Source: Deltaproteobacteria bacterium
GTDB taxonomy: Bacteria; Myxococcota_A; Polyangia; Haliangiales; Haliangiaceae
Length of the DNA: 34,032 bases
Assembly (NCBI GenBank): GCA_013813765.1
Contig: JACCRC010000465.1
Span: 1 to 34,032, forward strand
Direction: 5' to 3'
The translations under genes were made by a program, and so were the position numbers. The notes beneath the pieces were generated by a model. That model saw only the letters and a program-made list of their open reading frames with translations, ran no database searches and had not been told where the DNA came from. Shown here piece after piece: positions 7,170 through 34,032 of the stretch. Each line of letters starts with the position of its first letter. Within the stretch, counting starts at the first letter, position 1.

Positions 7170-9050
<1,881 letters not shown>

Positions 9051-18956: not shown

Positions 18957-20666
18957 TCAGTGCTTCTGCCGGCTGCCCCACGGCAACGCCAGGAGCAGGA
19001 TCTCGCCCCGGGCGCGCAACTCTGCGGACAGGCCGCCCGACGCAGCCGCGGCCAATGCACGGGCGAGCTCGGTTGCGGAGGTGAACCGTTGCTCCGGGCT
19101 CTTCGCGAGCGCGATCGCGAGGAACAGATCGAGATCCCGCGACATCCCGGGCATCAGCTCGGTAGGCCGGCGCGGGCCCCGGTACACCACGTCGAACAGT
19201 GTCTGAGGCGTATCGTTGCCGCGGAATGGCGGTTGACCGGTGAGCGCGCGATAGAGCACCGCGCCGAGCGAGAACAGATCGCTGCGCGCGTCGGCCGCCT
19301 GACCCCGCGCTTGTTCGGGCGACATGTAGCCCGGCGTACCGACGACGAGGTTCTGGGTGAGCGTGTCACCACCGTCCTGCAACTTGGATATACCGAAGTC
19401 GAGGATCTTCCAGCTCGGTGCGCCGCCGTCGGTGGGCGTGTGAAGAAAGAGATTCTGTGGCTTGATGTCGCGATGCACGATTCCTGCGGCGTGCGCATCC
19501 CGTAGACCCGCGGCGACCTGCGTGCACATCGCGACGACCTCGGGCAGCTCCAGGTGCTGTTTCTTGCGGAGGTGCCAGGCGAGATCATGGCCCTGGAGAA
19601 GCTCCATCACGAGATACGGGACCTCGTTGTCCAGCGCTCCCACTTCGAACACCGAGACCAGCCCAGGGGCTCGCAGCTTCGTCGCGATCAAGGCCTCGCG
19701 GTAGAACCGCGCGAGCTGGTTTCCATCGGCGGTGGCCATCAGCATCTTGACCGCGGCGGTGGTGTGGCCATTCTCGTGCCGCGCAGCGTAGACCTCTCCC
19801 ATCGCACCACGACCGATCACGTCCCCGAGCACCCATGATCCAGCGACGCGGCCGGTGTGCCGACCGAGCTTTGCGGCGCCGCCCACGTCGAGCGCTTTCT
19901 CGAGGTCGAGGTTCGCCTCCGCGAGCTGGGCTTCACGCTGCTGAACCACGCGCGCGGCCGCATCCACGGCGATCATCGCCTGGGTCGCCGTGTGGCGCGA
20001 AAGCCGCGCCTGCCGCAGCGTGCCGAGGAAGACGAGCGGAACCATCACCGATGCGAATGTGATGACCAGCGGAGAGTCGGGGACACGGATCAACCCGAGA
20101 TCCGGAATCAGCCCGAGACCGAGGAGCGCGGCCGTGATCGAGTAGATAGCGCCCGCCACGAGGCAGCACCCCACGGCCCATCGCCGGTCGTCGCTCGTCC
20201 CGAAGAACGAGATGCCGAGTGACACGGCGATCGGCGCCGGCGAGAAGACTCCGATGTAGTAGTCCATGAGCGCCGACGTGAACACCGCCGTGCCGCTGAA
20301 CAGGCGCAACAACGGCACGTACCGCTCTCCCGGCTCGGCACGGCGCCACACATACAGCGAGATCGTCCCGAGCAGCGCCAGCGCGCCCATCGTCGTGAAG
20401 CGCAGCCATGGCGTTCCGCCGAGGAACAGAAACCACACCACCGCGATCAAACAGAGGGTGCCCAGAAGCAGCCCCATGCCGCGCGCACGCTGGACCTCGT
20501 CGACGTGGAGCGCGTGCTTGCCCGGCGCCCATGCTTCCGAGGAACCCGTCACGGCGACGGCGCCGCCCTCCACACCAGCACGCGCGCCGCCCACGCGCCC
20601 ACCAGGGGTAAGCGCCAACGTCACCGTTTGCGCGGACTCACTTGCCGGTTCCCCCGCTGATCCCAC
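18957..20666 (-). CDS. Transmembrane serine/threonine protein kinase, C-terminal kinase domain
   Basis: The protein has 569 residues and the same plan as the kinase at 7170-9050. A soluble N-terminus (about 65 residues) is followed by about six membrane helices (for example GLLLGTLCLIAVVWFLFLGG and PLVITFASVMVPLVFLGTL). Then comes a short coiled linker (VVQQREAQLAEANLDLEKAL), which the other kinase also has in similar form, and the kinase domain from about residue 275. The motifs are intact: IGRGAMGEVYAARH, AAVKML, VHRDIKPQN, LDFGISK, YMSPEQARG. It is likely an active Hanks-type kinase sensing a membrane signal. The start is the GTG at 20666. The 99-bp gap to the divergent VOC gene probably holds both promoters, though I see no strong consensus. 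Confidence 0.92.
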   Translation of the reverse strand: MGSAGEPASESAQTVTLALTPGGRVGGARAGVEGGAVAVTGSSEAWAPGKHALHVDEVQRARGMGLLLGTLCLIAVVWFLFLGGTPWLRFTTMGALALLGTISLYVWRRAEPGERYVPLLRLFSGTAVFTSALMDYYIGVFSPAPIAVSLGISFFGTSDDRRWAVGCCLVAGAIYSITAALLGLGLIPDLGLIRVPDSPLVITFASVMVPLVFLGTLRQARLSRHTATQAMIAVDAAARVVQQREAQLAEANLDLEKALDVGGAAKLGRHTGRVAGSWVLGDVIGRGAMGEVYAARHENGHTTAAVKMLMATADGNQLARFYREALIATKLRAPGLVSVFEVGALDNEVPYLVMELLQGHDLAWHLRKKQHLELPEVVAMCTQVAAGLRDAHAAGIVHRDIKPQNLFLHTPTDGGAPSWKILDFGISKLQDGGDTLTQNLVVGTPGYMSPEQARGQAADARSDLFSLGAVLYRALTGQPPFRGNDTPQTLFDVVYRGPRRPTELMPGMSRDLDLFLAIALAKSPEQRFTSATELARALAAAASGGLSAELRARGEILLLALPWGSRQKH

Positions 20667-21590: not shown

Positions 21591-21950
21591 ATGACGGACG
21601 CGGAACCCACCACGGCGCAGCTCTTCGAGCGACTACGGGACAGCCTCGTGGATGTCATTGGGACGGCGGCGGCGGCGACATTCTTGCGACGCGCCATCCG
21701 GAAGGCGGCGCAACGTCGCCCCGAGCTCGAGGCGATCGAGATCACCAAGAACCGCCTCGACTACGACTACCTGCTTCCCGATGACTGGAAGCACGGCCGC
21801 ACGAACCTCGCCGCGCTCGCCGAGCTGTCGTGCGACCTCGAGGAGTTGCTGCTCGATCTCACCGGCACGGTGATGGTGCGAAGGCTTCGATCGATCGCGC
21901 TGCTGACCGATGCTGGGCTGTTTCGGACCAAGGACGCCGACCATGAGTAA
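21591..21950 (+). CDS. Small protein of unknown function, first gene of the KaiC operon
   Basis: The protein has about 119 residues from the ATG at 21591 (ATGs at 21546 and 21519 are possible longer starts). It is soluble and helical: TTAQLFERLRDSLVDVIGTA, then ATFLRRAIRKAAQRRPELEA, a short LDYDYLLPDDW motif and a Leu-rich C-terminus (ELSCDLEELLLDLTGTVMV). It does not resemble KaiB or KaiA. Its stop overlaps the KaiC-like start by 8 bp (ATGAGTAA), so it should be made together with KaiC and is a likely partner or regulator of it. The 105 bp before it contains AACATGTT (21516-21523) but no clear promoter consensus. Confidence 0.7.
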   Translation: MTDAEPTTAQLFERLRDSLVDVIGTAAAATFLRRAIRKAAQRRPELEAIEITKNRLDYDYLLPDDWKHGRTNLAALAELSCDLEELLLDLTGTVMVRRLRSIALLTDAGLFRTKDADHE

Positions 21951-23394
21951 GAAGCTCGAAGTCACCCCGACCGGAGATGAGTCCCTCGACGAGATCCTCG
22001 GCGGAGGGATCCCATCGCACTCCGTCGTTGTCATTGCCGGCGAGCCGGGATCCGGCAAGACGGTCATGACGCTGCAGATGCTGTTCGCGGCTGCGCGGAG
22101 GGGGCAGGACAGCCTCTACCTGACGACGTTGTCGGAGCCCGCGATCAAGGCCATGCGCTACGCGCAGCAGTACGGGTTCTTTGACGGCGAGCTGTTCGAG
22201 AAGCACATCCGGTTTCACGACCTCGGCAGCATCCTGCGCGAAGGCGCACAAGCGACGATGAACGAGATCGAGCGGCTCGTGGTGGAGCGCGAGCCCGCGT
22301 TCGTCGTCATCGATAGCTTCAAGGTGCTCGGTGACGTGCTGCGTGGACAGGTCGATGGACGTCCCCTCATCTATGACCTCGCGGTCCAGATGGCGGGATG
22401 GGGAGCCACCACGTTTCTCGTCGGCGAGTACAGCCGCGCGGAACACGCGTCGTTCGCGGAGTTTTCGATTGCCGATGGCATCCTGCAGCTCGGGACCACT
22501 CGACAGGAGCTGCAAGCGATCCGCGAGATCGAGGTGATGAAGCTCCGGGGGGCCGCGCACCGGTCCGGCACCCACTTCTTCGAGATCAGCGAGCACGGGC
22601 TGCGGTTCGTTCCCCGGGTCTCGATCCCCGCCGATGTCGATGCGCACCCGGCAATCGGCAACGACGAGCGCGTCCTCACCGGTGTGGCCGGGCTCGACGA
22701 GCTCCTCGATGGCGGACTGCCACGAACCAGCGCGACCGTGGTGCAAGGCGGCACGGGCACTGGCAAGACGCTTCTTGGCCTGCAGTTCCTGATCGAGGGA
22801 GCCCGGCGCGGCGAGAAGGGCGTGCTGTTCACGCTCGAGGAGACGCCCGCCCAGATCCGCGCGGTGGCGCGCAGCTTCGGCTGGGACCTCGCGAAGCTGG
22901 AACGCGAGGGGATGCTCGCCATCAAGTACACCTCGCCGGTCGAGCTCTCGACCGATCGCTACCTCGACCAAGCGCGCCGTGAGGTGAAGTCGCTCGGCGC
23001 ACAGCGTGCGGTGTTCGACAGCCTCACGACGATGCAGCTCGGCGTTCACTCGGAGCGCCGGTTCAAGGAGCTGGTCTACGCGATCACGAAGTATTTGCGT
23101 GGGAGCGGCGTCACCGTGGTCATGACGTCGGAATCTCCGGAGCTCCTCGGGAACGCGCAGCTCTCGGGGCACGGCGTGTCGTTCATCGCCGACAACTTCA
23201 TCAAGATCCGGTACGTCGAGCTCGACGGCCGACTCGACCGGGCGATCTCGGTGATCAAGTCACGCGGCGTCGCGCACGACTCGGAGCTGAGGGGCTTCAC
23301 GATCGGCAAGGGAGGCCTCCAGGTGGTCAGCGGTCGGTTCAAGAATCTGCGCGGCGTTCTGACCGGTCAGCCGTCCCCGGTGAGTCAGGCATGA
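21943..23394 (+). CDS. KaiC-like double-domain ATPase
   Basis: This 483-residue protein is a tandem RecA-like ATPase of the KaiC/RadD group. The first domain has Walker A GEPGSGKT (about residues 33-40) and the second GGTGTGKT (about 269-276). The second domain keeps the catalytic pair (FTLEETPAQIRAVARSFGW). The first has LTTLSEP, where one of the two usual Glu is Ser. In KaiC the second domain is autophosphorylated on adjacent Ser431/Thr432. Here the corresponding residues are Ser413-Phe414 (HGVSFIADN), so only one phosphosite remains. The C-terminal A-loop tail of clock KaiC is reduced to a short Ser/Pro end. It overlaps genes on both sides (ATGAGTAA upstream, ATGA downstream). It is probably a phosphorylation-state switch feeding the histidine kinase, not a circadian clock, since no kaiB is present. 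Confidence 0.92.
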   Translation: MSKKLEVTPTGDESLDEILGGGIPSHSVVVIAGEPGSGKTVMTLQMLFAAARRGQDSLYLTTLSEPAIKAMRYAQQYGFFDGELFEKHIRFHDLGSILREGAQATMNEIERLVVEREPAFVVIDSFKVLGDVLRGQVDGRPLIYDLAVQMAGWGATTFLVGEYSRAEHASFAEFSIADGILQLGTTRQELQAIREIEVMKLRGAAHRSGTHFFEISEHGLRFVPRVSIPADVDAHPAIGNDERVLTGVAGLDELLDGGLPRTSATVVQGGTGTGKTLLGLQFLIEGARRGEKGVLFTLEETPAQIRAVARSFGWDLAKLEREGMLAIKYTSPVELSTDRYLDQARREVKSLGAQRAVFDSLTTMQLGVHSERRFKELVYAITKYLRGSGVTVVMTSESPELLGNAQLSGHGVSFIADNFIKIRYVELDGRLDRAISVIKSRGVAHDSELRGFTIGKGGLQVVSGRFKNLRGVLTGQPSPVSQA

Positions 23395-24947
23395 ACGATC
23401 ACGACATCCATCGGTTCGCGAGCACCCTCGCCGAGATCGCGCACGCGCTCGAGCACGTCGACGAGGTGCAGGCGCGTGTGGGCCGCGTCCTCGAGCTGAC
23501 GGCCACCATGGTCCCGTACTCGCGGATCACGCTCCTCGACATCGAGGACAGCCAGCACCAGATCCACACCGTGCCCACCGCGGAACCGAAGTCGGTCGCC
23601 GTGCTGGCGTCGTCACTCCTGCGGACCTGGCGGCGCATCGTCGATGACACCGATCATCGCTGCGACGAGCTGCCGGCCGAGAGCCTCACGCTCCCGGTGA
23701 TGGGGCTCGATCGGATCAACGGCCTGATCCGGGTCGAGCCGCCGGACCAGGGCGTCTACGACGCGACGCATCTCCGGCTCCTGTCGGTCGTCGCGGCGCA
23801 GCTCGGGGCCTACTTGACGATGACGCGCCTGCGCGCCGCGCAAGCGCGACACAACGCGGAGCTGGCGACCGCGATCGAATTCCAGCAGGTGCTCGCCGCC
23901 GTGGTAGGTCACGACCTGCGCAGCCCGCTCGCCGTGATCATGACCGTTGCCTGCATGCTCCGGGAGACCACGACCGATCCGAATCAGCTCCGCGCGCTCG
24001 ATCGTGCACTGTCGAGTGCGCAGCGCGCGAGCCGCTTGATCTCCGATCTGATCGATGTCACCGAGTGCCGCGTTCAGGGCGCGATGCCGATCCGCCGGCT
24101 GCGCACCGATGCACGCAGAATCGTCGATGACGTCGTGGAGGAGGCGCGGATCGCGCACCCGCGCTGCACGATCACGCTCGACATCCAGGGCAACGAGGTC
24201 GTGTTCGGCCAATGGGACCCGCATCGCCTCGCGGAGGTACTGACGAACCTGATCAACAACGCGGTTCATCACGGCTCCTCCGCAGGCACGGTCCGCGTCA
24301 CGATGAGCTACGACAGCTCGATGTTGCAGCTGTCGGTGCACAACACCGGGGATCCGATTCCGGACCACCTCTTCCCGACGATCTTCGATCCGTTCAAGCG
24401 CGGATCGAGTGCACGCGCCGCGGGCAAGCATGGGCTCGGTCTCGGGCTCTACATCGTCGACCAGATCACCCGTGCTCATGGCGGAACGATCACGGTGCTC
24501 TCTACCCACGAGCTCGGGACCACCTTCACGCTCTCGCTCCCGCGCGATGCAGAGGTCCCGCCGCCGCGTCGCCTGGAGCTGTCGCAGACCGTGATGATCG
24601 TCGATGACGATCCCGATGTCCGGATCGGCATCGCTGCCCTCCTCGAGAAGCGCGGGTTCGGAGTGGCGGAGGCTGCCGATGGCCAGGATGCCTACGAGCA
24701 GCTGCTGCGCGGCCTTCGACCGAGCGCGATCCTGCTCGATCTCCACATGCCGCGCATGGACGGCCAGGCGTTCTACGAGCGATGCGCCGGCGATCCTGCG
24801 CTCGCCGACATCCCGATCATCATCGTCTCGTCGGATGCCGCGAATGCCCTCAAGCTGTCGCGAACCGGCGCCGTGCTCGCAAAGCCCGTGAAGGGCGCTG
24901 ACCTGTTGCGGGCACTCGATTCGATCGGTGAGCCCGAGAAGAGCTGA
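23391..24947 (+). CDS. Hybrid histidine kinase (GAF-HisKA-HATPase-REC)
   Basis: The protein has 518 residues and no membrane segment. Domain order: GAF-like sensor (about 5-150), HisKA with phospho-His174 (VVGHDLRSPLAVI), HATPase_c (about 280-385) with N box LTNLINNAVHHG, G boxes FDPFKRGSS and GLGLGLYIVDQI, and a C-terminal receiver (about 400-510) with TVMIVDDDPDV, phospho-Asp450 (LLDLHMPRMDG) and Lys in LAKPVKG. A hybrid kinase of this plan normally passes phosphate from His to its own Asp and then to an Hpt domain. The only Hpt in view is in the protein at 26770-28146. Its ATG overlaps the KaiC stop (ATGA), strongly implying that KaiC state controls this kinase. It converges with the receiver gene ending at 24957, with a 9-bp gap. 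Confidence 0.95.
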   Translation: MNDHDIHRFASTLAEIAHALEHVDEVQARVGRVLELTATMVPYSRITLLDIEDSQHQIHTVPTAEPKSVAVLASSLLRTWRRIVDDTDHRCDELPAESLTLPVMGLDRINGLIRVEPPDQGVYDATHLRLLSVVAAQLGAYLTMTRLRAAQARHNAELATAIEFQQVLAAVVGHDLRSPLAVIMTVACMLRETTTDPNQLRALDRALSSAQRASRLISDLIDVTECRVQGAMPIRRLRTDARRIVDDVVEEARIAHPRCTITLDIQGNEVVFGQWDPHRLAEVLTNLINNAVHHGSSAGTVRVTMSYDSSMLQLSVHNTGDPIPDHLFPTIFDPFKRGSSARAAGKHGLGLGLYIVDQITRAHGGTITVLSTHELGTTFTLSLPRDAEVPPPRRLELSQTVMIVDDDPDVRIGIAALLEKRGFGVAEAADGQDAYEQLLRGLRPSAILLDLHMPRMDGQAFYERCAGDPALADIPIIIVSSDAANALKLSRTGAVLAKPVKGADLLRALDSIGEPEKS

Positions 24948-24956
24948 CGTTCGTGA

Positions 24957-25376
24957 TCAGGGCAGCTCCATCAGCCGCCAGTACGCGCTGATCATCGCCA
25001 TCGCCTTCTCGAACGCCTGGTAGGTGACGGGCTTCACGATGTAGCCAGCCACGTTGAGGCGGAACGCTTCGACGCGATCTCGGTCATCGTTCGACGTGGT
25101 CATCACGATCACGGTCAGCGCACTCAGCGCAGGGTCAGCACGCACCTCGCGGAGGAGCTCGATGCCCGTCATCTTCGGCATGTTGATGTCGAGGAGCACC
25201 AGCCGGCGCCCCGGCGGAAAGGCGCCGCTACGGAGGAGCTCGAGCGCCTCGAGGCCGTTGCGCGCCACGGTGACCTGGGTCGGAAGCTTCGCAGCCGCGA
25301 ACGCCCGGCGCACGGTGATGACATCGACCTCGTCATCCTCGACGAGCAAGAGGTTGAGGGTCCCGTCACCGTCCAT
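24957..25376 (-). CDS. Single-domain response regulator
   Basis: This is a 139-residue stand-alone receiver. The acidic pocket is LLVEDDEVD, phospho-Asp63 lies in LVLLDINMPKMTG, the switch Thr in VIVMTTSNDD and the Lys in GYIVKPV. The long spacing between the second and third strand is typical of Rcp1-like regulators paired with phytochrome-like or GAF kinases. There is no output domain, so it acts by protein contact or as a phosphate shuttle or sink. It lies 11 bp after the NtrC-like gene start region on the same strand (that gene ends at 25388, so this one follows it), likely in one operon. The convergent hybrid kinase is a probable partner. Confidence 0.92.
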   Translation of the reverse strand: MDGDGTLNLLLVEDDEVDVITVRRAFAAAKLPTQVTVARNGLEALELLRSGAFPPGRRLVLLDINMPKMTGIELLREVRADPALSALTVIVMTTSNDDRDRVEAFRLNVAGYIVKPVTYQAFEKAMAMISAYWRLMELP

Positions 25377-25387
25377 GGGGACGGCGT

Positions 25388-26677
25388 TCAGCCGAAGTCG
25401 GACTCTTCATCGGCTTCCTCTCGACCCTCGGCCGCCGGGATCCCGTGCGCCTTCAGCTTCTGCCACAGGCCCTTGCGAGAGAGATCGAGCACCTTCGCGG
25501 CACGCGTTCGATTTCCCCCGACTGCCCGCAGCACGCGCAGCAGGTAGCTACGCTCGAAGCGCTTCGCGACAGCATCGAGGGTCTCGAGCGCGGCGAGATC
25601 AGCGGAGTCATCCGACTCGCCGTCCGTTTGCCGCTGGATGTCGACGGGAAGGTGCTCGACCTCGATCTGGCGCCCTTGCGACAGCACGACGGCGTGGGTC
25701 AGCGCGTGCGCCAGCTCTCTCACGTTGCCCGGGAACGTGTAGCCATCGAGCGCTCGCGCGGCCGAGCTCGAGATCGGCGACCGTCGTCCGTCGTTGAGAC
25801 GATTGAGCATGCGCCCCATGATCGCCTTGAGATCTCTCGCGCGCTCGCGCAGCGGCGGGAGATCGAGCTCGTGAACCTTGAGGCGATAGAACAGCGACGG
25901 ACGGAGCGGCCCGCCCGCGTTCAGCCGCGCACGGTCGTCACCGACCATCACGCGGACGTCGATGTGCCGGTCGCGACCTTCGATCGAGACCTGTCTCTGC
26001 TCGATCAGGCGCAGCAGCTTCGCCTGCAGGCCCGGCGCGAGATCGGTGACGAACTCGATGAACAGCGTGCCCCCATCGACGCGAAGGATCTGTGGATCGG
26101 GACCGCCGAACAGGTGCTGATCGAGCTGATCTCCTGGGAGCGCCGACGCATTGACGGCCATGAACGGCCGCCCTTGCCGCATGCACCGGTCGTGGATCGC
26201 GCGCGCGACGACGGTCCGACCCGAGCCCAGCTCGCCGTAGATCGAGACCGGATGATCGCTCTGTGCAACGAGCCGCACCTGCCGCAGCAGATCGATGATC
26301 GCAGGGCTGTCACCCGCGAACAGCACCTCGAAGCTCACGAGCTCGCTCGGATCACTCTCGCCACTTCGAGCCTCGGTCAGCACGCGCACGAGCCTCGTCA
26401 GCTTCGGAACGTCGAGCGGCTTCATGAGCGCGATCCCCTCTTCGATCGGGAGGGACTCATCGAGACTATCGACGAGGAACAACAGCTCGGCGTTCGGCAC
26501 TCGCTTCGCCAGCCGTAACACCTCGGGCTCGGTCCAGGTCGCGACATCGAGGACCACCAGGTCACCCCAGAGATCCGTCGTATCGCGACTGACGATGTGA
26601 ACTTCGTGGCCCTCGGCCACGAGCGCGGCCTCGATGGCCCGCGCAGCGCTCTCGCTATCGAAGACGATCACTTCCAT
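25388..26677 (-). CDS. NtrC-like response regulator with degenerate AAA domain
   Basis: The protein has 429 residues: an N-terminal receiver-like domain (1-102; Asp44 in LVVLDVATW, Lys86 in LMKPLD), a central AAA domain (about 115-345) and a Fis-type helix-turn-helix at about 385-412 (RTRAAKVLDLSRKGLWQKLK). In place of Walker A GESGTGKE it has GELGSGRT, so the ATP-binding Lys is Arg154. The sigma-54 contact loop (GAFTGA) and its flanks are deleted: LFG (189-191) runs straight on to GGPDPQILRVDGGTLF. Walker B is GGTLFIEFV instead of GGTLFLDEI. The rest (PPLRERARDLKAIM, FPGNVRELAHAL) is normal. It should bind DNA but not remodel sigma-54 polymerase. It is followed closely by the receiver gene at 25376. 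Confidence 0.9.
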   Translation of the reverse strand: MEVIVFDSESAARAIEAALVAEGHEVHIVSRDTTDLWGDLVVLDVATWTEPEVLRLAKRVPNAELLFLVDSLDESLPIEEGIALMKPLDVPKLTRLVRVLTEARSGESDPSELVSFEVLFAGDSPAIIDLLRQVRLVAQSDHPVSIYGELGSGRTVVARAIHDRCMRQGRPFMAVNASALPGDQLDQHLFGGPDPQILRVDGGTLFIEFVTDLAPGLQAKLLRLIEQRQVSIEGRDRHIDVRVMVGDDRARLNAGGPLRPSLFYRLKVHELDLPPLRERARDLKAIMGRMLNRLNDGRRSPISSSAARALDGYTFPGNVRELAHALTHAVVLSQGRQIEVEHLPVDIQRQTDGESDDSADLAALETLDAVAKRFERSYLLRVLRAVGGNRTRAAKVLDLSRKGLWQKLKAHGIPAAEGREEADEESDFG

Positions 26678-26688
26678 CGCGGCACCCA

Positions 26689-26768
26689 GCTGCGTGAGGA
26701 GCCTTTAGTGTTACCTCCAGTACACGCGGACCTCAAGTGGGTGCATCGTCACACGGGTCTCACGCAGC
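26689..26768. promoter_or_regulatory. Inverted repeat upstream of the NtrC-like gene
   Basis: GCTGCGTGAG (26689-26698) and CTCACGCAGC (26759-26768) are perfect complements separated by 60 bp. They fill the gap between the GGDEF-Hpt gene and the NtrC-like gene. They could be paired sites for a regulator, possibly the NtrC-like protein itself, or a long stem. Confidence 0.4.
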
Positions 26769-26769
26769 G

Positions 26770-28146
26770 TCAGGTCTGCTCGACGAGCTGCGCCGTGATC
26801 GACTGGGACGTGCGGCGATACACCACCTGCACGTGTTCGAGGTACCACGCGATCTCGTCGACGACGCGCAAGAGCTCGGTTCGATTGACATCCTTCGCCG
26901 ACTGCTCGAGCCGGTCACCGAGGACGGAGAGGTCATCGAAGCCGAAGGTGCCGCCGGAGCCCTTGAGCTTGTGCCCGAACGCTTTGACCGCTGCGAGATC
27001 GCCGACGCGTGCGGCCTCACGAACGGGGAGCAGCTCGGTGCGCCGGTTCTCGAGGTACCGCGGGATGTGGTGGGCCATGTACGGATCGGCGCGGATCACG
27101 GGGCAGACCGGCCACGGGCGCCGGGAGACAACGACCTGGCCCGGCACGTCGGCATCCGAGCACCAGCGATTGCGCCCGCTGTCCTTCGCCCGGAACAGCG
27201 CGGTATCGGCGGCGGACACCAGCATGGTGGGGGGACGATCGAGCGAGGGTGCCATCGTGGCCACGCCGGCGCTGATCGTCACGACCTTCGCGCACCGCGA
27301 GCGCTCGTGCTCGATCCCGAGCTCCTCGACGGCCGCCCGCAGCCGCTCGGCGACGGCACATGCGCCCGCGGCATCGGTATCTGGAAGCAGCGCGACGAAC
27401 TCCTCGCCGCCGTAGCGCGCGAGCACGTCGGACGGACGCCGCAGGCAGTTCGTCATGGCCGTGGTGACGTCCTTCAAGCAGCTGTCGCCACCGAGGTGAC
27501 TGTAGTGCTCGTTGAAGGCGTGAAAATCATCGACGTCGACGAGCACCAGCGAGAGTGGCGATCCGGGACGTGAGGCGCGATTCCATTCGTTGCGCAGCAG
27601 CGTGTCGAAGTGTCCGCGGTTGGCAATGCCGGTCAACGCGTCGATACTGACCATGCGCTCGAGCTCGCGCGTGGTCTCTTCCAGACGGCGCGCCTGTGCG
27701 GCGAGCTCGGACTCGCGACTGCTGCGGAGCAAGCGCTCGGACCGGAGCTTGAGGGCCGCCCGTGCGCGCGCTGCCAGCTCACCGAGGCGAAATGGCTTGG
27801 CGACGTAGTCCTGAGCTCCCGCCTCGAAGGCCACCTGGATCACGGATTCGTCGCTGCGCGCGGTGATGATGACCACCGGGACGTTTGGAATCAGCTTCGT
27901 GAGCTGGCGACAGACCTCGAGCCCGTCGATATCCGGAAGACCGAGATCCAGGAGCACGAGGTCGGGGCCCAGCGCCTGTGCGACCCGCAGGGCTTCCACG
28001 CCCGAGGCGATAAAGCGCACCTCCTCGCACCCGACGCTGTTCAGGACGTCCCGCACCACGCCGCACAGCGACGCGTCGTCCTCGATCACGAGCGCGCGGA
28101 ACGACGGCGCGTTGGTCGGGCGGAGGGTGTTGAGTTGTGCAACCAC
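26770..28146 (-). CDS. REC-GGDEF-Hpt protein (response-regulated diguanylate cyclase)
   Basis: From the GTG at 28146 the protein has 458 residues in three parts. The receiver (about 16-135) has phospho-Asp67 in LVLLDLGLPDIDG and Lys in YVAKPFR. A short coiled linker leads to a GGDEF domain (about 180-345) with an intact active site RYGGEEF and DALTGIANRGHFD, so it should make c-di-GMP. The C-terminal Hpt domain (about 370-450) has phospho-His in FGHKLKGSGGTFGFDD. The combination means one protein can take phosphate on Asp, pass phosphate via His and make a second messenger. An upstream TTG at 28260 gives an Arg/Pro-rich extension that I regard as untranslated. It lies 92 bp upstream of the NtrC-like gene on the same strand. 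Confidence 0.9.
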   Translation of the reverse strand: MVAQLNTLRPTNAPSFRALVIEDDASLCGVVRDVLNSVGCEEVRFIASGVEALRVAQALGPDLVLLDLGLPDIDGLEVCRQLTKLIPNVPVVIITARSDESVIQVAFEAGAQDYVAKPFRLGELAARARAALKLRSERLLRSSRESELAAQARRLEETTRELERMVSIDALTGIANRGHFDTLLRNEWNRASRPGSPLSLVLVDVDDFHAFNEHYSHLGGDSCLKDVTTAMTNCLRRPSDVLARYGGEEFVALLPDTDAAGACAVAERLRAAVEELGIEHERSRCAKVVTISAGVATMAPSLDRPPTMLVSAADTALFRAKDSGRNRWCSDADVPGQVVVSRRPWPVCPVIRADPYMAHHIPRYLENRRTELLPVREAARVGDLAAVKAFGHKLKGSGGTFGFDDLSVLGDRLEQSAKDVNRTELLRVVDEIAWYLEHVQVVYRRTSQSITAQLVEQT

Positions 28147-28312
28147 GGTGAGTCCGATGCGCTCGCTATGACGTGTTGCGCTCGGTCGGAACCGCCGGCG
28201 AGGCGGCGGAGGCAGAACCGAGCGGCGAGTCGTCACCGTTGCATGCTCCGCACCAAGCAATTATCGATCAGAAATTCACGGAGACGTGGGGTGCGCTGGT
28301 GACTGCCGAGAG

Positions 28313-28456: not shown

Positions 28457-28828
28457 CTAGCACAAGCGCGAAACTGCAGCGATCAGCTCTTTCCCGCGCG
28501 CGGGCTTGGCGAGAAAGCCGTCGACGCGGAGCTCGGACGCAATCTGGGCTCCTCGATCCGAGGCACTCATCACGAGCACGCGAATCGCCGCCCAGCGCGG
28601 GTCTGCGAGCTGCCGTTGCCGGAACTCCAGCCCGTCCATGACCGGCATCATGAGGTCGAGCACGATCAGGTTCGGCAGCGCGTGCGACTCCAGATAATCG
28701 AGGGCATCCTGTCCATTGCGCGCTCCCTCGACGGTGAATCCCTCGTCGGCCAGCACGTCGCAGAACGACTCGCGGATGTCGTCGTCGTCGTCGACGATGA
28801 GGATCGTGCTCGCTGTAGAAACGGACAC
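28457..28828 (-). CDS. Single-domain response regulator
   Basis: This is a 123-residue receiver with no output domain. It has an acidic run ILIVDDDDDIRES, phospho-Asp58 in LIVLDLMMPVMDG, a switch Ser in VLVMSASDRG and Lys in FLAKPARG. It starts 11 bp after the stop of the giant kinase gene (28840) on the same strand, so it is probably co-transcribed and receives phosphate from that kinase's histidine-kinase half. The very end (SRLC) borders the AgmX-like remnant, so its natural C-terminus might have been altered by a deletion, although the receiver fold is complete. Confidence 0.93.
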   Translation of the reverse strand: MSVSTASTILIVDDDDDIRESFCDVLADEGFTVEGARNGQDALDYLESHALPNLIVLDLMMPVMDGLEFRQRQLADPRWAAIRVLVMSASDRGAQIASELRVDGFLAKPARGKELIAAVSRLC

Positions 28829-28839
28829 CGCCAGGGATG

Positions 28840-31800
28840 CTAGCTCAGTGGCAAGGGCAGGGTCACGCGGAACGTCGCCCCGCCTCCCGGCGTCTCCTCC
28901 ACGGCGACGGTCCCCCCGTGTGCGAGCACGAACGCGCGGACCATGTACAGCCCGAGCCCCAACCCATCGACGTTGGTGGCCGACTGGACGCGCTCGAAGC
29001 GCTCGAAGATGCGCTCACGATCTCCGGCATGCACTCCGACACCATGGTCGGTGATCGTGAGCTGCGCGCCGCCGACCGCACGCTCGACAGCGAGCTCTAC
29101 CGGCTGCATGCGCCCGAACTTGAACGCATTGCGCAACAGGTAGGTCACGACGTGGTCGAGCTGCGTTCGATCCCACTCGCCGACGAGCCCAGCCTCGAGC
29201 CGCGACGAGACCACACACCCGGCCCGCGCTGCCAGATCAGCATGGGCCGCGATCTTGTCCTGCACGGCCGCCGCAAGATCGATCGGCTCGCGGCGGAGCA
29301 CCATCGTACCGGACTCGATCCGCGAGACGTCGAGGAGCGCTTCGACCAGCCTGGTCATCCGCTCGATCTGCGCCTCGCAGGTCGTCACCAGCTTGGTGAT
29401 CGCAGCGTCGGGCATCTCGCGCAGCGTGCCCTTGCGTACCGCGGCGCCGAGGCGGTGGACCTGCATCGCGAGTGGTGCGAGCGGCGTACGGAGCTCGTGC
29501 GACGCGATCGACAAGAACTCGTCGCGCGCGACGATGGCGGCCTGCGATGCCTCGTAGAGTCGCGAGTTCTCGACGGAGATCGCCGTCTGCGACGCCAGGA
29601 TGTCGAGGGTCGCGAGCCGTTCCGGGTCAAACGCACCGGCGACCAGGTCGTTCTCCAGATAGAACATGCCGACCATGCGGCCGTGACGCATGATCGGCTG
29701 ACACAGCACGGACCGCCGCCGCTGGGTCTGGAAGTACGGATCGCTGCCGAACTGGTTGCTGGTCGAGGCGTCGTCGATCAGCACGTGCTCCCCCGTCCGG
29801 CGCGCGTAGTTGAGCACCGACCACGGTAGGGCGTTGGGTAGGGCCTCCGCGTCGATCGATGCGGAGGCCGCGACGACCAGCGTTTCCGCCTCGAGGAGGA
29901 GCAGCGAACCACGCCGCGCCCCGGCGTACTCGATGACGATCGACATGAGCCGCGGGAGGAGGCGCGGCAGCACGATCTCTTCGGACAGGCTCTGCGAGGC
30001 CTTGAGCACCGATGCCAGATCGAGCTCGCTTCCGGTGGTCGTCTGCGTGGAAACGCTGCCGCGAGTCGCCGGGTCGACCACGATCGACCGACGACCGATT
30101 CCGCGATTTCGCGCCAACAAGTCGGCCGCCTTCCCAGCAGCGCCCCACCGCCGGTACAGGTTCGAGGCATCGGCGAGGAGCGCACGCCGCACGAAGTCGA
30201 CGCCGAGCGCTCCGTACATCTCTGCCGCGCGCTCGCACGCGAGCGCTTCGTACTGGACCATCTCCTGGGAGCGCGCCGCGAGCCGTGCTTCCTCGTACGC
30301 ACGAATCGCAGTGGGCACGTCGCCAGTCAGCCACGCGAGCTCCGCGCGAAGCAGCGCGGCCTTGTCGGCGAAGTTCGACGGACACGCGCGCGCCCATTCG
30401 CCGTGAACGCGTTGCTGTGCGTCGATCTCCGCGAGATAGCGAGCACGTGTCTCGGCGTCAACGTCACGACACAGCGCTGCGAGCGTCAGTGCACGGTACA
30501 GACCGTAGGACGCATAGATCGGCATCGAGAACGCGGAGCCGAGCTCGGGTGCGGCGAGATCGGCCGCCGTCAGCGCTGCGGCGTAGTCACGGAACGTGTA
30601 GCGCGCGATCATCTGCAGGATGTGCAAATAGACGATGCCGCAGCCAAAGCGCGCAGCGGTCACCGCCGTCAGAGCGGCCTGCTCGTCGAAGTCATGCGAA
30701 TCGAGGCTGCCACGCTCGCCCGTGCCACCCATCAGCGCGAGCACGAACTGCTCCTCGGCGCGTAGCGTCCAGTGCACGGCCTCGTAGCGGGTCTCTTGCG
30801 CGAAAGCGGCGTGCTTCGCGATCAACGCGGTCACGGCTGGCAACGGCGCGCCGGCCTCGTAGAGATGCCACGGCGCCTGGAACCCGATGTAGTTCGAGTA
30901 GATGTGATCGCCAGCGCGTACGCAGGCCGCGAACCCGCGCTCGAGAATCGGGAGATCCGTGGCGATCGGATTCTTCCAGAAGTTCACGTGATCGCCGAGC
31001 AGGTGCAGCATGCAGCCCTCGAGCTTCACGCCCCGGAGCTTCTCGTTGAGCCGGATCGCGAGCCAGCTGAACTCATGTCCGCCGTCGACGTCGCCGTACA
31101 CGGCGGCACGCAGCAGGGCATAGATGCCGTAGCCGTAACACGATGCTTCGGTGTGACCGTGGCGGAGTGAATGATTGACGAGCTGCAGGGCGACCCACGC
31201 GAACAGCTCCGGCTTGACCATGTAGATCGGAGGCCCGGATGCTTCGAGGAGATCGGCGAGCATCTGCATCCGCGGATCCGTCATCAGCGGGGCGTCGATG
31301 TGCGCTGCGATTGGCCGGTCCCCCAGCAGCTGGAGGGCGAGCTGCTTTTGCTCCTCGATCGCGCTGGTGGCCTCGCTTGACGCGGGCGTGTGAAGCCCGA
31401 ACAACGAGAACGCGCGAAGACAGACGTCGGCCGCCTGGGCCAGCTCGCCCGCGATCTGGAACAACCGGATCTGAAGATAGTAGATCCGGGCCTGCTCGAG
31501 ATCGGTGCGTGCGCGCCGCAGGAGCTCGTCGAACAGTCCACGAGCGGCGTCGAGATCACCACCGAGGTAGGCGCACTCGGAGAGCTCGACATGCACGTCG
31601 AACGCGAGCTCGAATCGGGACGTCCATGCGCTCTCGCCGAGAAGCGCGGCAGCTCGTGTGTGGTACGAGCGCGCCTGCTGATAAGCTGTCGAGAGCTTGG
31701 CCTTGTGCGCGGCGCGCACCAGCAGCTCGAGGAGCCGCTCTCGCTCGGTGGGTTCGGTGATCAGCGAACCCGCGGCGACGAGGTGGTTCGCGGTCTCGAA

Positions 31801-33894
31801 CAACCGCTCGCCACGCCCGTCCGTGGCTTCACGGTCCCAGAAGCGTCGCCCGACGAGAAGGTGCAGCGCACTCCGCTCGCTCGCGGGGGTGAGCTCGTAC
31901 GCCGCCTCCTGCACTCGGTCGTGGCTGAATCGTGCGCCGGGTGCGCCATCTTGCCGGATCGTGATCAGCCCCTGCTCGACCGCCGGCAGCAGGTCTGCGG
32001 CCAGCTCGTTCATCGAGCGACGCGTGATCGCCGCCAGGTCGGCGGTCTCGAAGTCGTTGCCCAGTACGGAGGCGATCCGCAGCACGTCGATCGTTTGCGC
32101 GGGAAGCTGGCGCAGGCGATCCACGACCAGCTCGACGACGTTGTCGGTGATCTCGGTGGTCTCGACCTCGGCCGGATCGAAGCGCCATGCTCGCGCGAGC
32201 TCGTCGAACCGCAGCAGCCCGGTGAGCTGAAGCGTCCGGACGAACTCGCGCACGAAGAACGCGTTTCCAGCGGTCTTGGACATCGCGAGCGCGGCCAGCT
32301 GCTCGCACGCCAGCGGGTCTGCGTGCAGCGTATCGCGCAGCAGCGTGCACACCGCGTCGTGATCGAGCGCCGCGAGGTGGATGTCCTGGATCCGAGCGCG
32401 CGTGGCGCGCAAGCGATCGAGCGCGGCGTGATGCTCGCGATACGCGATGATCAGGAGTACCGGCACCTGCCCGCTGTTCGCGAGGATCGACTCGACCAGC
32501 GCGACCGAGGCGTCATCCGCCCACTGCAGGTCGTCCAGGAACAGGACGACCGGATGATCGAACGCTCCCAGGAAGGCGCGGATCAGATGATGCAACCGGT
32601 TCTGCATCGCGGCCGGCGGCAAGTCCGGCGCTGGCGGCAGCGGTCCGAGAATTTGCTCGAGGCCTGGAATGAGGTCGACCAGCGTTCGCGCGTTGCCATC
32701 GACCCGCGCGAGCAGCCGTTCCTTCCATGCAGCGAGGTGGTGGCCGCTGTGGGTCAGGATTTGATCGACCAGCACGGCGCTTGCCTCGATGAAGGCGGAG
32801 TAGGGAAGGTGGCCTCGGTACTGATCGAACTTGCCCGATGCGAAGTAGCCCTGACTGCGAGCAACCGGCACCAGCAGCTCGCGGACCAGGGAGGTCTTGC
32901 CGACGCCGGGCGCACCAGAGATCAGCACGACCTCGCCATGAGAGGTGGTTGCGACTCGCGTGAACGCATCGTGGAGCGCTCGGACCTCGACCGCTCTCCC
33001 GTACACGCGATCCGGAAGCTGGAACCGGTCAGACACGTCGCGCTCCGCGAGCGGGAACATCGAGATCGTTCCAGTGTTCTGCAGATCGGCGAGTGCGCGC
33101 GTCAGATCACGCTCGACTCCGCTCGCACTCTGGTAGCGCTCCTCGGGAGTCTTCGCGAGCAGCTTGAGTACGAGCTGCGAGAGCACCTCCGGGAGATCCG
33201 GCAGAAGCTCGGTCAACGCACGCGGGACTTGTGCGGTGTGACAGTGCATCCATTGCAACGCATCTGTCGCGTGGAACGGTTGCCCTCCGACGAACAGCTC
33301 GTAGAGCACGACGCCGAGCGAGTACAGATCGGCCCGCTGGTCGACGGGGCGCCCGAGCCGACCGGAGGACTCGGGTGCCATGTACGCGAGCGTTCCCTCG
33401 AAGCCTGCGCCGGGCTCGGTCCGAACCTCGCCCTCCCGCAGCGCGACACCGAAGTCGGTGATCTTGATCTCGCCGGTCGACGGCCGATGGATGAAGTTGG
33501 AGGGCTTGACGTCGCGATGCACGATACGCGCGCGGTGAACGTCGGCGAGCGCACGTGCGATCTGGATCGCGATCGGTAGCGTGACCGAGAGGGCCGCGCG
33601 CGCAGGTAGGGTCAAGCTCAGCGCCTCGCCACCAAAATCCTCCAGCACGAGCGCGAGCCGTCCCTCGTGATGAGTCGAGCCGTACGCCTGGACCACGGTC
33701 GGCGCGGTGATGCCGCGGGCGACCTCGAGCTCGCGCAACAGGCGTGCGCGATGGAGGGCATCATCACACTGTGACGTCAGGACCTTGAGGACGACCGGCC
33801 GGTCATCCTCACCACGCACCGCCCGGTAGATCGTGCAGCGTGGGCCATCATGAACGATGCTGAGAATTTTCAGCGGGGTACGTGGGTCGTTCAC
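28840..33894 (-). CDS. Giant Ser/Thr kinase - AAA ATPase - GAF - histidine kinase
   Basis: From the GTG at 33894 this is about 1,684 residues. The N-terminal Hanks-type kinase (about 10-275) has VVLKVL, VHRDVKPSN, ITDFGVAL and YMAPESSGR; the Gly loop is atypical (HDGPRCTIYRA). An AAA/STAND ATPase follows (about 295-600; Walker A SGAPGVGKTS, Walker B VVLFLDDLQWADD). A long helical TPR-like region spans about 600-1260. A GAF domain lies at about 1275-1445 (SVLCQPIMRHGRMVGMFYLE). HisKA has its His at about 1463 (IASHELRTPLAPL). HATPase_c ends the protein (ITDHGVGVHAGDRE, GLGLGLYMVRAF). The plan matches known bacterial trifunctional Ser/Thr-His kinases. A TTG at 33975 would add 27 residues but runs through a palindrome. 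The receiver gene at 28828 follows. Confidence 0.93.
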   Translation of the reverse strand: MNDPRTPLKILSIVHDGPRCTIYRAVRGEDDRPVVLKVLTSQCDDALHRARLLRELEVARGITAPTVVQAYGSTHHEGRLALVLEDFGGEALSLTLPARAALSVTLPIAIQIARALADVHRARIVHRDVKPSNFIHRPSTGEIKITDFGVALREGEVRTEPGAGFEGTLAYMAPESSGRLGRPVDQRADLYSLGVVLYELFVGGQPFHATDALQWMHCHTAQVPRALTELLPDLPEVLSQLVLKLLAKTPEERYQSASGVERDLTRALADLQNTGTISMFPLAERDVSDRFQLPDRVYGRAVEVRALHDAFTRVATTSHGEVVLISGAPGVGKTSLVRELLVPVARSQGYFASGKFDQYRGHLPYSAFIEASAVLVDQILTHSGHHLAAWKERLLARVDGNARTLVDLIPGLEQILGPLPPAPDLPPAAMQNRLHHLIRAFLGAFDHPVVLFLDDLQWADDASVALVESILANSGQVPVLLIIAYREHHAALDRLRATRARIQDIHLAALDHDAVCTLLRDTLHADPLACEQLAALAMSKTAGNAFFVREFVRTLQLTGLLRFDELARAWRFDPAEVETTEITDNVVELVVDRLRQLPAQTIDVLRIASVLGNDFETADLAAITRRSMNELAADLLPAVEQGLITIRQDGAPGARFSHDRVQEAAYELTPASERSALHLLVGRRFWDREATDGRGERLFETANHLVAAGSLITEPTERERLLELLVRAAHKAKLSTAYQQARSYHTRAAALLGESAWTSRFELAFDVHVELSECAYLGGDLDAARGLFDELLRRARTDLEQARIYYLQIRLFQIAGELAQAADVCLRAFSLFGLHTPASSEATSAIEEQKQLALQLLGDRPIAAHIDAPLMTDPRMQMLADLLEASGPPIYMVKPELFAWVALQLVNHSLRHGHTEASCYGYGIYALLRAAVYGDVDGGHEFSWLAIRLNEKLRGVKLEGCMLHLLGDHVNFWKNPIATDLPILERGFAACVRAGDHIYSNYIGFQAPWHLYEAGAPLPAVTALIAKHAAFAQETRYEAVHWTLRAEEQFVLALMGGTGERGSLDSHDFDEQAALTAVTAARFGCGIVYLHILQMIARYTFRDYAAALTAADLAAPELGSAFSMPIYASYGLYRALTLAALCRDVDAETRARYLAEIDAQQRVHGEWARACPSNFADKAALLRAELAWLTGDVPTAIRAYEEARLAARSQEMVQYEALACERAAEMYGALGVDFVRRALLADASNLYRRWGAAGKAADLLARNRGIGRRSIVVDPATRGSVSTQTTTGSELDLASVLKASQSLSEEIVLPRLLPRLMSIVIEYAGARRGSLLLLEAETLVVAASASIDAEALPNALPWSVLNYARRTGEHVLIDDASTSNQFGSDPYFQTQRRRSVLCQPIMRHGRMVGMFYLENDLVAGAFDPERLATLDILASQTAISVENSRLYEASQAAIVARDEFLSIASHELRTPLAPLAMQVHRLGAAVRKGTLREMPDAAITKLVTTCEAQIERMTRLVEALLDVSRIESGTMVLRREPIDLAAAVQDKIAAHADLAARAGCVVSSRLEAGLVGEWDRTQLDHVVTYLLRNAFKFGRMQPVELAVERAVGGAQLTITDHGVGVHAGDRERIFERFERVQSATNVDGLGLGLYMVRAFVLAHGGTVAVEETPGGGATFRVTLPLPLS

Positions 33895-33938
33895 CGCAGA
33901 TAAGCCTAAGGGGCCCCGAATGAGCGAGTCGATCGAAT

Positions 33939-33954
33939 TCCATTTCGAAATGGA
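33939..33954. promoter_or_regulatory. Perfect 16-bp palindrome upstream of the giant kinase gene
   Basis: TCCATTTCGAAATGGA reads the same on both strands and lies 45-60 bp before the GTG at 33894, in a locally A/T-richer stretch. It is well placed to be an operator for a dimeric regulator. It argues for the start at 33894 and against 33975. The remaining 57 bases (33976-34032) show only a possible plus-strand start (ATG 34014) with too little sequence to judge. Confidence 0.55.
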
Positions 33955-34032
33955 TCGCGGACGATCGACAAGCACTGCGACGGCGTGATCTACGTCCGGG
34001 GTGCGGTCGTCGTATGACGCGGAGAAGCTGGT

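Follow-up and report, generated by a model that had tools for sequence, protein, structure and literature searches.

What does a KaiC-like ATPase do when it is encoded between a small protein of no recognised family and a histidine kinase, with neither KaiA nor KaiB at the locus? The question arises from a contig of a Deltaproteobacteria bacterium of the family Haliangiaceae (JACCRC010000465.1, assembly GCA_013813765.1), the whole 34,032-nucleotide (nt) stretch of which was analysed and is referred to here as the window. From the sequence alone, the original prediction had described three overlapping plus-strand genes that face a receiver, an NtrC-like regulator and a REC-GGDEF-Hpt protein on the minus strand, and these open reading frames (ORFs), overlaps and domains hold. 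The lack of KaiB at the locus was also borne out, while KaiB (PF07689) is present elsewhere in the same genome, where it adjoins two other KaiC genes, with two copies on contig C431 and one on contig C500. Based on its linkage to KaiC, the small protein, which we gave the working label SKP ("small KaiC partner"), is probably a working partner of KaiC. Gene calls were crude (ORF plus codon bias), and the plus-strand genes are as follows.

21591-21950, plus strand: P0001, SKP, 119 amino acids (aa), no Pfam matches
21943-23394, plus strand: P0002, double-domain KaiC-like ATPase of the SKP-linked type (PF06745 in two stretches, 7e-84)
23391-24947, plus strand: P0003, hybrid histidine kinase, GAF-type, with a C-terminal receiver (HisKA, HATPase_c, REC)

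P0001 and P0002 overlap by 8 nt, and P0002 and P0003 by 4 nt (ATGA).

Linkage of SKP to KaiC

When 377 genomes of its phylum were searched with P0001, we obtained a copy from the same genus (G366, 60%), a copy in G018 (37%) and a partial, frame-broken copy on contig C154 of its own genome. KaiC adjoins SKP in both G366 and G018, and the KaiC of G366 breaks off within CII. Scanning genome contigs for KaiC yielded six loci; the gene preceding KaiC resembled SKP in the three from Burkholderiales and in L021. A hidden Markov model built from eight sequences then selected the ORF immediately 5' of KaiC in nine further loci, and one more was added on iteration. The final alignment holds 29 members with 11-61% identity to P0001, among which one Leu is invariant and Gly24 and Arg34 are nearly invariant.

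In the 377 genomes, the SKP profile marked 18 places, 15 of them strong (E<=2.3e-25), and every strong one lies directly 5' of KaiC. Considering that 14 of these 15 were already members of the model, specificity rather than recall is tested there. Of the three weak places, one is the broken copy on C154; the other two (G335:C324 and G351:C112, E 5e-4), beside which KaiC was not seen, were taken as false. The ORF at G335:C324 was matched by an earlier SKP profile at 3.4e-7, yet we take it to be phytoene-synthase-like from its motifs, and no called gene at G351:C112 matches SKP.

A neighbourhood check set beforehand asked whether SKP stands with KaiC elsewhere. Among held-out strong matches that could be checked (E<=1e-11), KaiC sequence lay immediately downstream in 18 of 18, as one full ORF in 14 and as a broken or remnant gene in four, so that the check was passed and the suggestion that the small gene belongs to a new KaiC-linked family was upheld by linkage. 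One of these cases, in G373, has a KaiC split between frames. Thirty genomes of the same family yielded nine new SKP places, eight of them checkable, in six genomes, and one at a contig end; KaiC was a full ORF in five of the eight, truncated in one and a remnant in two. Two hundred Burkholderiales genomes yielded ten, of which eight, from eight genomes, had KaiC and two lay at contig ends, and the remaining case came from 398 Pseudomonadota genomes (G927). Matches at contig ends (G595, G405, G409) and weak matches (G787, E 2.8e-4; G816, E 8.7e-4) were left out of the linkage count. The distribution of SKP is patchy: with weak matches counted (E<=0.001), it was detected in 14/377, 9/30, 11/200 and 6/398 genomes of the four sets.

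Of 28 loci, 24 have the stop codon of SKP overlapping the start codon of KaiC, with ATGA or GTGA as the usual sequence, and the exceptions are L013, L014, L151 and L160. If SKP were an ancestral operon hitch-hiker of unrelated function, tied to KaiC by descent only, its low sequence identity would be expected. However, linkage and overlap persist both between the window's phylum and the distant Burkholderiales and through paralogous pairs within one genome (two SKP-KaiC pairs in each of G000, G366, G582 and G585), which makes this explanation very improbable. In several same-family genomes KaiC itself appears broken, truncated or a remnant (L013, 6906-8444; L148; L149; L153), by real decay or by an assembly fault, while SKP stays, in some of them together with a kinase.

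Sequence and predicted fold of SKP

P0001 had no match in Pfam, NCBIfam or the PDB sequences. For the first 18 SKP members, the best family matches were 0.057 in Pfam, 0.036 in NCBIfam and 0.0049 in PHROG, each from one member, and a search of PDB sequences with the SKP profile for remote homologs returned yktB alone at E 0.1. SKP was rejected as a KaiB, since PF07689 was unmatched by P0001 and KaiB was absent from the families matched by the 18 members.

The AlphaFold2 model of P0001 (mean predicted local distance difference test score, pLDDT, 86.1; predicted template modelling score, pTM, 0.80) begins with two helices and a short third one, continues with a beta hairpin, and ends in a long helix followed by two short helices. 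The model of a Burkholderiales member was all helical (pLDDT 84.5, pTM 0.79), and the beta hairpin of P0001 is therefore not common to the family; each model was built on seven sequences. With Foldseek, neither the window model (best 0.36) nor that of the Burkholderiales member (best 0.52) matched a PDB fold at E<=0.001, and viral models gave no match to the fold (best 0.13). None of the 21 pattern stretches on viral contigs encoded a SKP relative. Long ORFs in L147 and L152 that looked like SKP-KaiC fusions were out-of-frame extensions by their coordinates, and no fusion occurred in the loci examined. A SKP-like family was named in no title or abstract opening of the literature searched, which covered few subscription papers. 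Judged from its sequence, SKP is a divergent protein family that is undescribed in the sources searched.

Motifs and phylogeny of KaiC

To place P0002 among other KaiCs, we compared a non-random sample of KaiC loci, consisting of 40 regions from the best P0002 matches in the 377 genomes, loci of the window's own genome, the six loci of the KaiC-based scan and SKP-bearing loci. By script, 65 loci were divided into 30 with SKP in front, seven with a receiver in front, six with KaiB beside KaiC and 22 with none of these. Two of the latter (L086, L146) have SKP 5' of a frame-broken KaiC, which corrects the counts to 32 and 20. L149 was dropped from the motif table, as was L153, where no KaiC was found at threshold. 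In a tree of 59 KaiCs, from which seven broken or partial ones were left out, a branch with support 100 separates the six KaiB-linked KaiCs, together with one further sequence, from all the others. The SKP-linked KaiCs fall into three branches whose branching order is unsettled, and all of them lie outside the KaiB-linked clade.

P0002 has the make-up of a double-domain KaiC: it contains PF06745 twice, Walker A and B motifs are in place, with Walker A in both CI and CII, and its best PDB match is a KaiC chain (1.4e-75). Its score against the NCBIfam model circ_KaiC was 190.7 bits, and the cut-off of 546.25 was not reached. The catalytic Glu pair is changed to Ser-Glu in CI and retained in CII, and the phosphosite pair at the positions of S431/T432 is Ser-Phe (SF). 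The first catalytic Glu is the general base, and the CI ATPase paces the cyanobacterial clock. Among SKP-linked KaiCs with letters at the site, the first CI Glu was absent in 30 of 30 (22 Gly-Glu, 7 Ser-Glu, 1 Gly-Ala), while it was retained in 6/6 KaiB-linked KaiCs. The first CII Glu was retained in all 32 SKP-linked KaiCs, followed by E in 18, Q in 8, K in 5 and R in one, compared with 5/27 KaiCs without SKP or KaiB (two rows reassigned) and 5/6 KaiB-linked ones. At the phosphosite, 27 SKP-linked KaiCs had SF (13), AF (9), ET (2), SL (1), AI (1) or CF (1), with Phe in the second position in 23/27 and Thr in two, and none had ST or SS, whereas the six KaiB-linked KaiCs had three ST and three SS. 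L013, in which KaiC ends prematurely, short of the site, was excluded from this count.

These motifs bear on the timer role that the original prediction had offered for KaiC, and on an hourglass or clock in which KaiC drives the kinase and, with neither KaiA nor KaiB, keeps time through slow ATPase activity and autophosphorylation. The gene order, with the kinase following KaiC and no KaiB at the locus, would suit such a device. However, the loss of the CI Glu, the Phe at the second phosphosite with no ST or SS pair, and the position outside the KaiB-linked clade all speak against it; the timer role was not supported, and an hourglass is improbable. Because of the KaiC motifs a clock is disfavoured, and KaiC is unlikely to be one here.

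Among the closest described arrangements is that of Ramlibacter tataouinensis, in which KaiC-kinase operons without KaiB (Rta_04330/04340), co-transcribed according to reverse transcription PCR, were proposed to act as an hourglass (PMC3164672, 2011). As in the window, the kinase gene directly follows KaiC, KaiB is lacking, and SF is among the listed phosphosite types. In contrast, the Ramlibacter kinase is described there as having an N-terminal domain weakly similar to KaiB/SasA, while the window kinase starts with a GAF-type region and SKP is added. Among Pfam profiles, P0003 showed a weak GAF match and no KaiB match at E<=1. Section 17 of that paper names no small protein before KaiC, and the legend of a supplementary figure marks "hypothetical protein" neighbours. 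Of the two phosphorylatable KaiC residues that the paper takes as its hourglass criterion, P0002, with SF, lacks the second.

Cyanobacterial KaiABC/SasA resembles the window in that a double-domain KaiC adjoins a sensor kinase. The window differs in lacking KaiA and KaiB at the locus, in the lost CI Glu, in the Phe at the second phosphosite and in staying below the circ_KaiC cut-off; moreover, P0002 ends three residues past the stretch aligned to residue 497. The window's own genome has four further double-domain KaiC loci (C431, C500, C467 and C416; L016-L019), two with KaiB, one with SKP and one fronted by a receiver. The kaiC-kaiB-kinase operons of C431 and C500 likewise place KaiC, small gene(s) and a hybrid kinase on one strand, but their small genes are KaiB and lie 3' of KaiC, and their KaiCs keep the CI Glu pair and belong to the KaiB-linked clade. 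Receiver-KaiC operons (C416 and six other loci) also have a small protein 5' of KaiC, with a kinase behind in 4/7; they differ in having a receiver instead of SKP in this position, and in a CII pair that is Gln-Glu in 5/7. Since a lone receiver occupies the same 5' place in these seven loci of a related KaiC branch, the place of SKP fits a slot for a regulator.

Histidine kinases downstream of KaiC

Of the 30 SKP loci, five (L062, L069, L158, L162, L165) end too soon to be checked for a kinase; in 21 of the remaining 25, a histidine kinase lies 3' of KaiC, on the same strand and within 700 nt. SKP-KaiC pairs without a downstream kinase are those of L143, L147, L148 and L150, the last having a kinase 5' of SKP, and the gene downstream in L013 is a different, rearranged kinase. 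In a Pfam scan of ten kinases of KaiC loci (nine SKP, one receiver-fronted), the input domains were GAF, PAS, GGDEF or none. The GAF matches of P0003 itself are under the Pfam cut-off, and GAF is above it in relatives. Considering that SKP-KaiC pairs persist without a kinase and that kinase inputs vary, SKP tracks KaiC and not the sensor domain.

This evidence also bears on whether SKP serves the histidine kinase, as its adaptor or cofactor, instead of KaiC. The frequent downstream kinase is consistent with such a role, as is contig C154, which retains an intact kinase beside its broken SKP. That kinase, however, persists with SKP broken and KaiC gone, and the four pairs lacking a downstream kinase persist as well; we therefore see only a slim chance for a kinase adaptor. 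The kinase on C154 (L015, 1639-3503) is a hybrid-kinase paralog (47%), and an 18-codon mini-ORF between it and SKP retains start/stop overlaps, the pattern that an internal deletion of KaiC would leave.

Two other kinases behind SKP-KaiC differ in their N-terminal parts. The one in L060 (3555-4487) has no recognised sensor domain ahead of HisKA, a hint that the input can come from KaiC itself, and the one in L025 (7489-9141, Rhizobacter) has an N-terminal GGDEF domain.

Proposed SKP-KaiC-kinase module

From gene order and motifs, the case for the plus-strand operon being an SKP-KaiC-kinase module, in which SKP would set an ATP-dependent KaiC ring that gates the kinase, seems to us about evenly balanced. 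SKP would bind the KaiC ring and set its nucleotide or oligomeric state. CI would be a nearly inactive ring that holds ATP, with ATP turnover in CII. The ring could then gate the hybrid kinase at the autophosphorylation step, in the way that KaiC of cyanobacteria acts on SasA, if control runs in that direction. The phosphoryl group would move to the receiver within the kinase and perhaps also to P0004, the stand-alone receiver on the facing strand, and P0005, also on that strand, would be a sigma54-independent DNA-binding output. Somewhat more tentatively, with odds a little short of even, SKP may be a new class of KaiC subunit that has no PDB fold match and no relationship to KaiA or KaiB, and under whose influence KaiC would be an ATP-dependent gate of histidine kinases instead of a clock, the ring being inverted relative to the clock with CI silent and CII turning over.

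In favour of the module, besides the linkage, the stop/start overlap, the pairs that persist without a kinase, the regulator slot and the retained CII Glu, pairwise distances of SKP and KaiC were correlated (r 0.83 over 25 pairs, with 0/5000 permutations as high; L013, L058 and L148 left out), although shared species history also lifts this correlation, which was computed without species control. The nearest neighbour was the same for SKP and KaiC in only 13 of the 25 pairs, among them the two own-genome SKPs, P0001 with L143 and C467 with L160. Both the species effect and this low agreement weigh against the module, as do the following observations. In L067, KaiC falls within the largest SKP branch with no SKP upstream, and the SKP of C154, itself broken, has no adjoining KaiC. 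No kinase adjoining KaiC was found in G582:C411 and G587. Loss of the first CI Glu is not specific to SKP-linked KaiCs, occurring also in 7/7 receiver-type KaiCs and in 18/19 of those with neither SKP, receiver nor KaiB that had letters at the site; as the loss is common to KaiCs outside the KaiB clade, it is the retained CII Glu that distinguishes the SKP-linked ones. Lastly, SKP could instead be a folding or assembly factor of KaiC, translated first and coupled, with no role in signalling. A small protein with a mostly helical predicted fold, encoded immediately 5' of KaiC in close linkage and with overlapping stop and start codons, is what such a factor might look like. No SKP, however, stands in front of the KaiCs in neighbouring branches or in the KaiB-linked clade, and SKP is highly divergent, so that we consider an assembly factor rather unlikely.

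KaiCs outside the KaiB-linked clade are found in many bacteria, and a dedicated partner recognisable by sequence would offer a direct experimental handle on them. The motif pattern of a lost CI Glu, a kept CII Glu and no phosphosite pair separates SKP-linked from clock KaiCs and makes the question of clock or switch testable, while the label "circadian clock protein KaiC" on such genes is no evidence of a clock. SKP may thus point to a previously unrecognised working part of bacterial KaiC switches.

Minus-strand neighbours

The genes facing the operon are as follows.

24957-25376, minus strand: P0004, stand-alone receiver (REC)
25388-26677, minus strand: P0005, NtrC-like DNA-binding protein, degenerate (Sigma54_activat, HTH_8)
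26770-28260, or from a GTG start at 28146, minus strand: P0006, REC-GGDEF-Hpt protein (REC, GGDEF, Hpt)

The relay elements and cyclic di-GMP domain that had been predicted for the locus were recovered by motif search. P0003, which has the parts of a hybrid kinase including the ATP-binding domain, carries H-box His 174 and receiver Asp 450; P0004 carries Asp 63; and P0006 carries receiver Asp 105, GGEEF with an RxxD site, and Hpt His 430.

The description of P0005 as an NtrC-like regulator stood in part. Its Sigma54_activat and HTH_8 domains are present, but its Walker A motif is GSGR, with Arg in place of Lys, and the GAFTGA loop is deleted. The same changes occur in its four nearest relatives (5/5), in contrast to two control sequences having GK with GAFTGA or GAFTDA. 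Without the Walker A lysine and GAFTGA, P0005 is expected from the known features of NtrC-type activators to act without sigma54.

In G582, at a locus where no kinase was found, orthologs of P0004 (64%) and P0005 (63-65%) stand together and diverge from a 177-aa gene, SKP (45%) and KaiC (64%). The 177-aa gene (L143, 9613-10146) has no Pfam match, lies immediately 5' of SKP and overlaps it. In G366, of the same genus, an ortholog of P0005 (71%) lies 5' of SKP. No counterpart of P0006 was found beside SKP-KaiC in G366 or G582. The idea that all six genes form one circuit was supported only in part, by P0004 and P0005, which recur together once beside SKP-KaiC (G582, same genus; P0005 also in G366), and not for P0006, near which a second minus-strand kinase is present.

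The minus-strand run continues past P0006 with a lone receiver (28457-28828) and a giant 1711-aa Ser/Thr kinase-AAA-GAF-histidine kinase (28840-33975), a rival kinase for P0006. For this reason the place of P0006 in the KaiC module is doubtful, and it may belong with the neighbouring kinase instead. Two more Ser/Thr protein kinases are encoded in the window, at 7170-9050 on the plus strand and at 18957-20666 on the minus strand.

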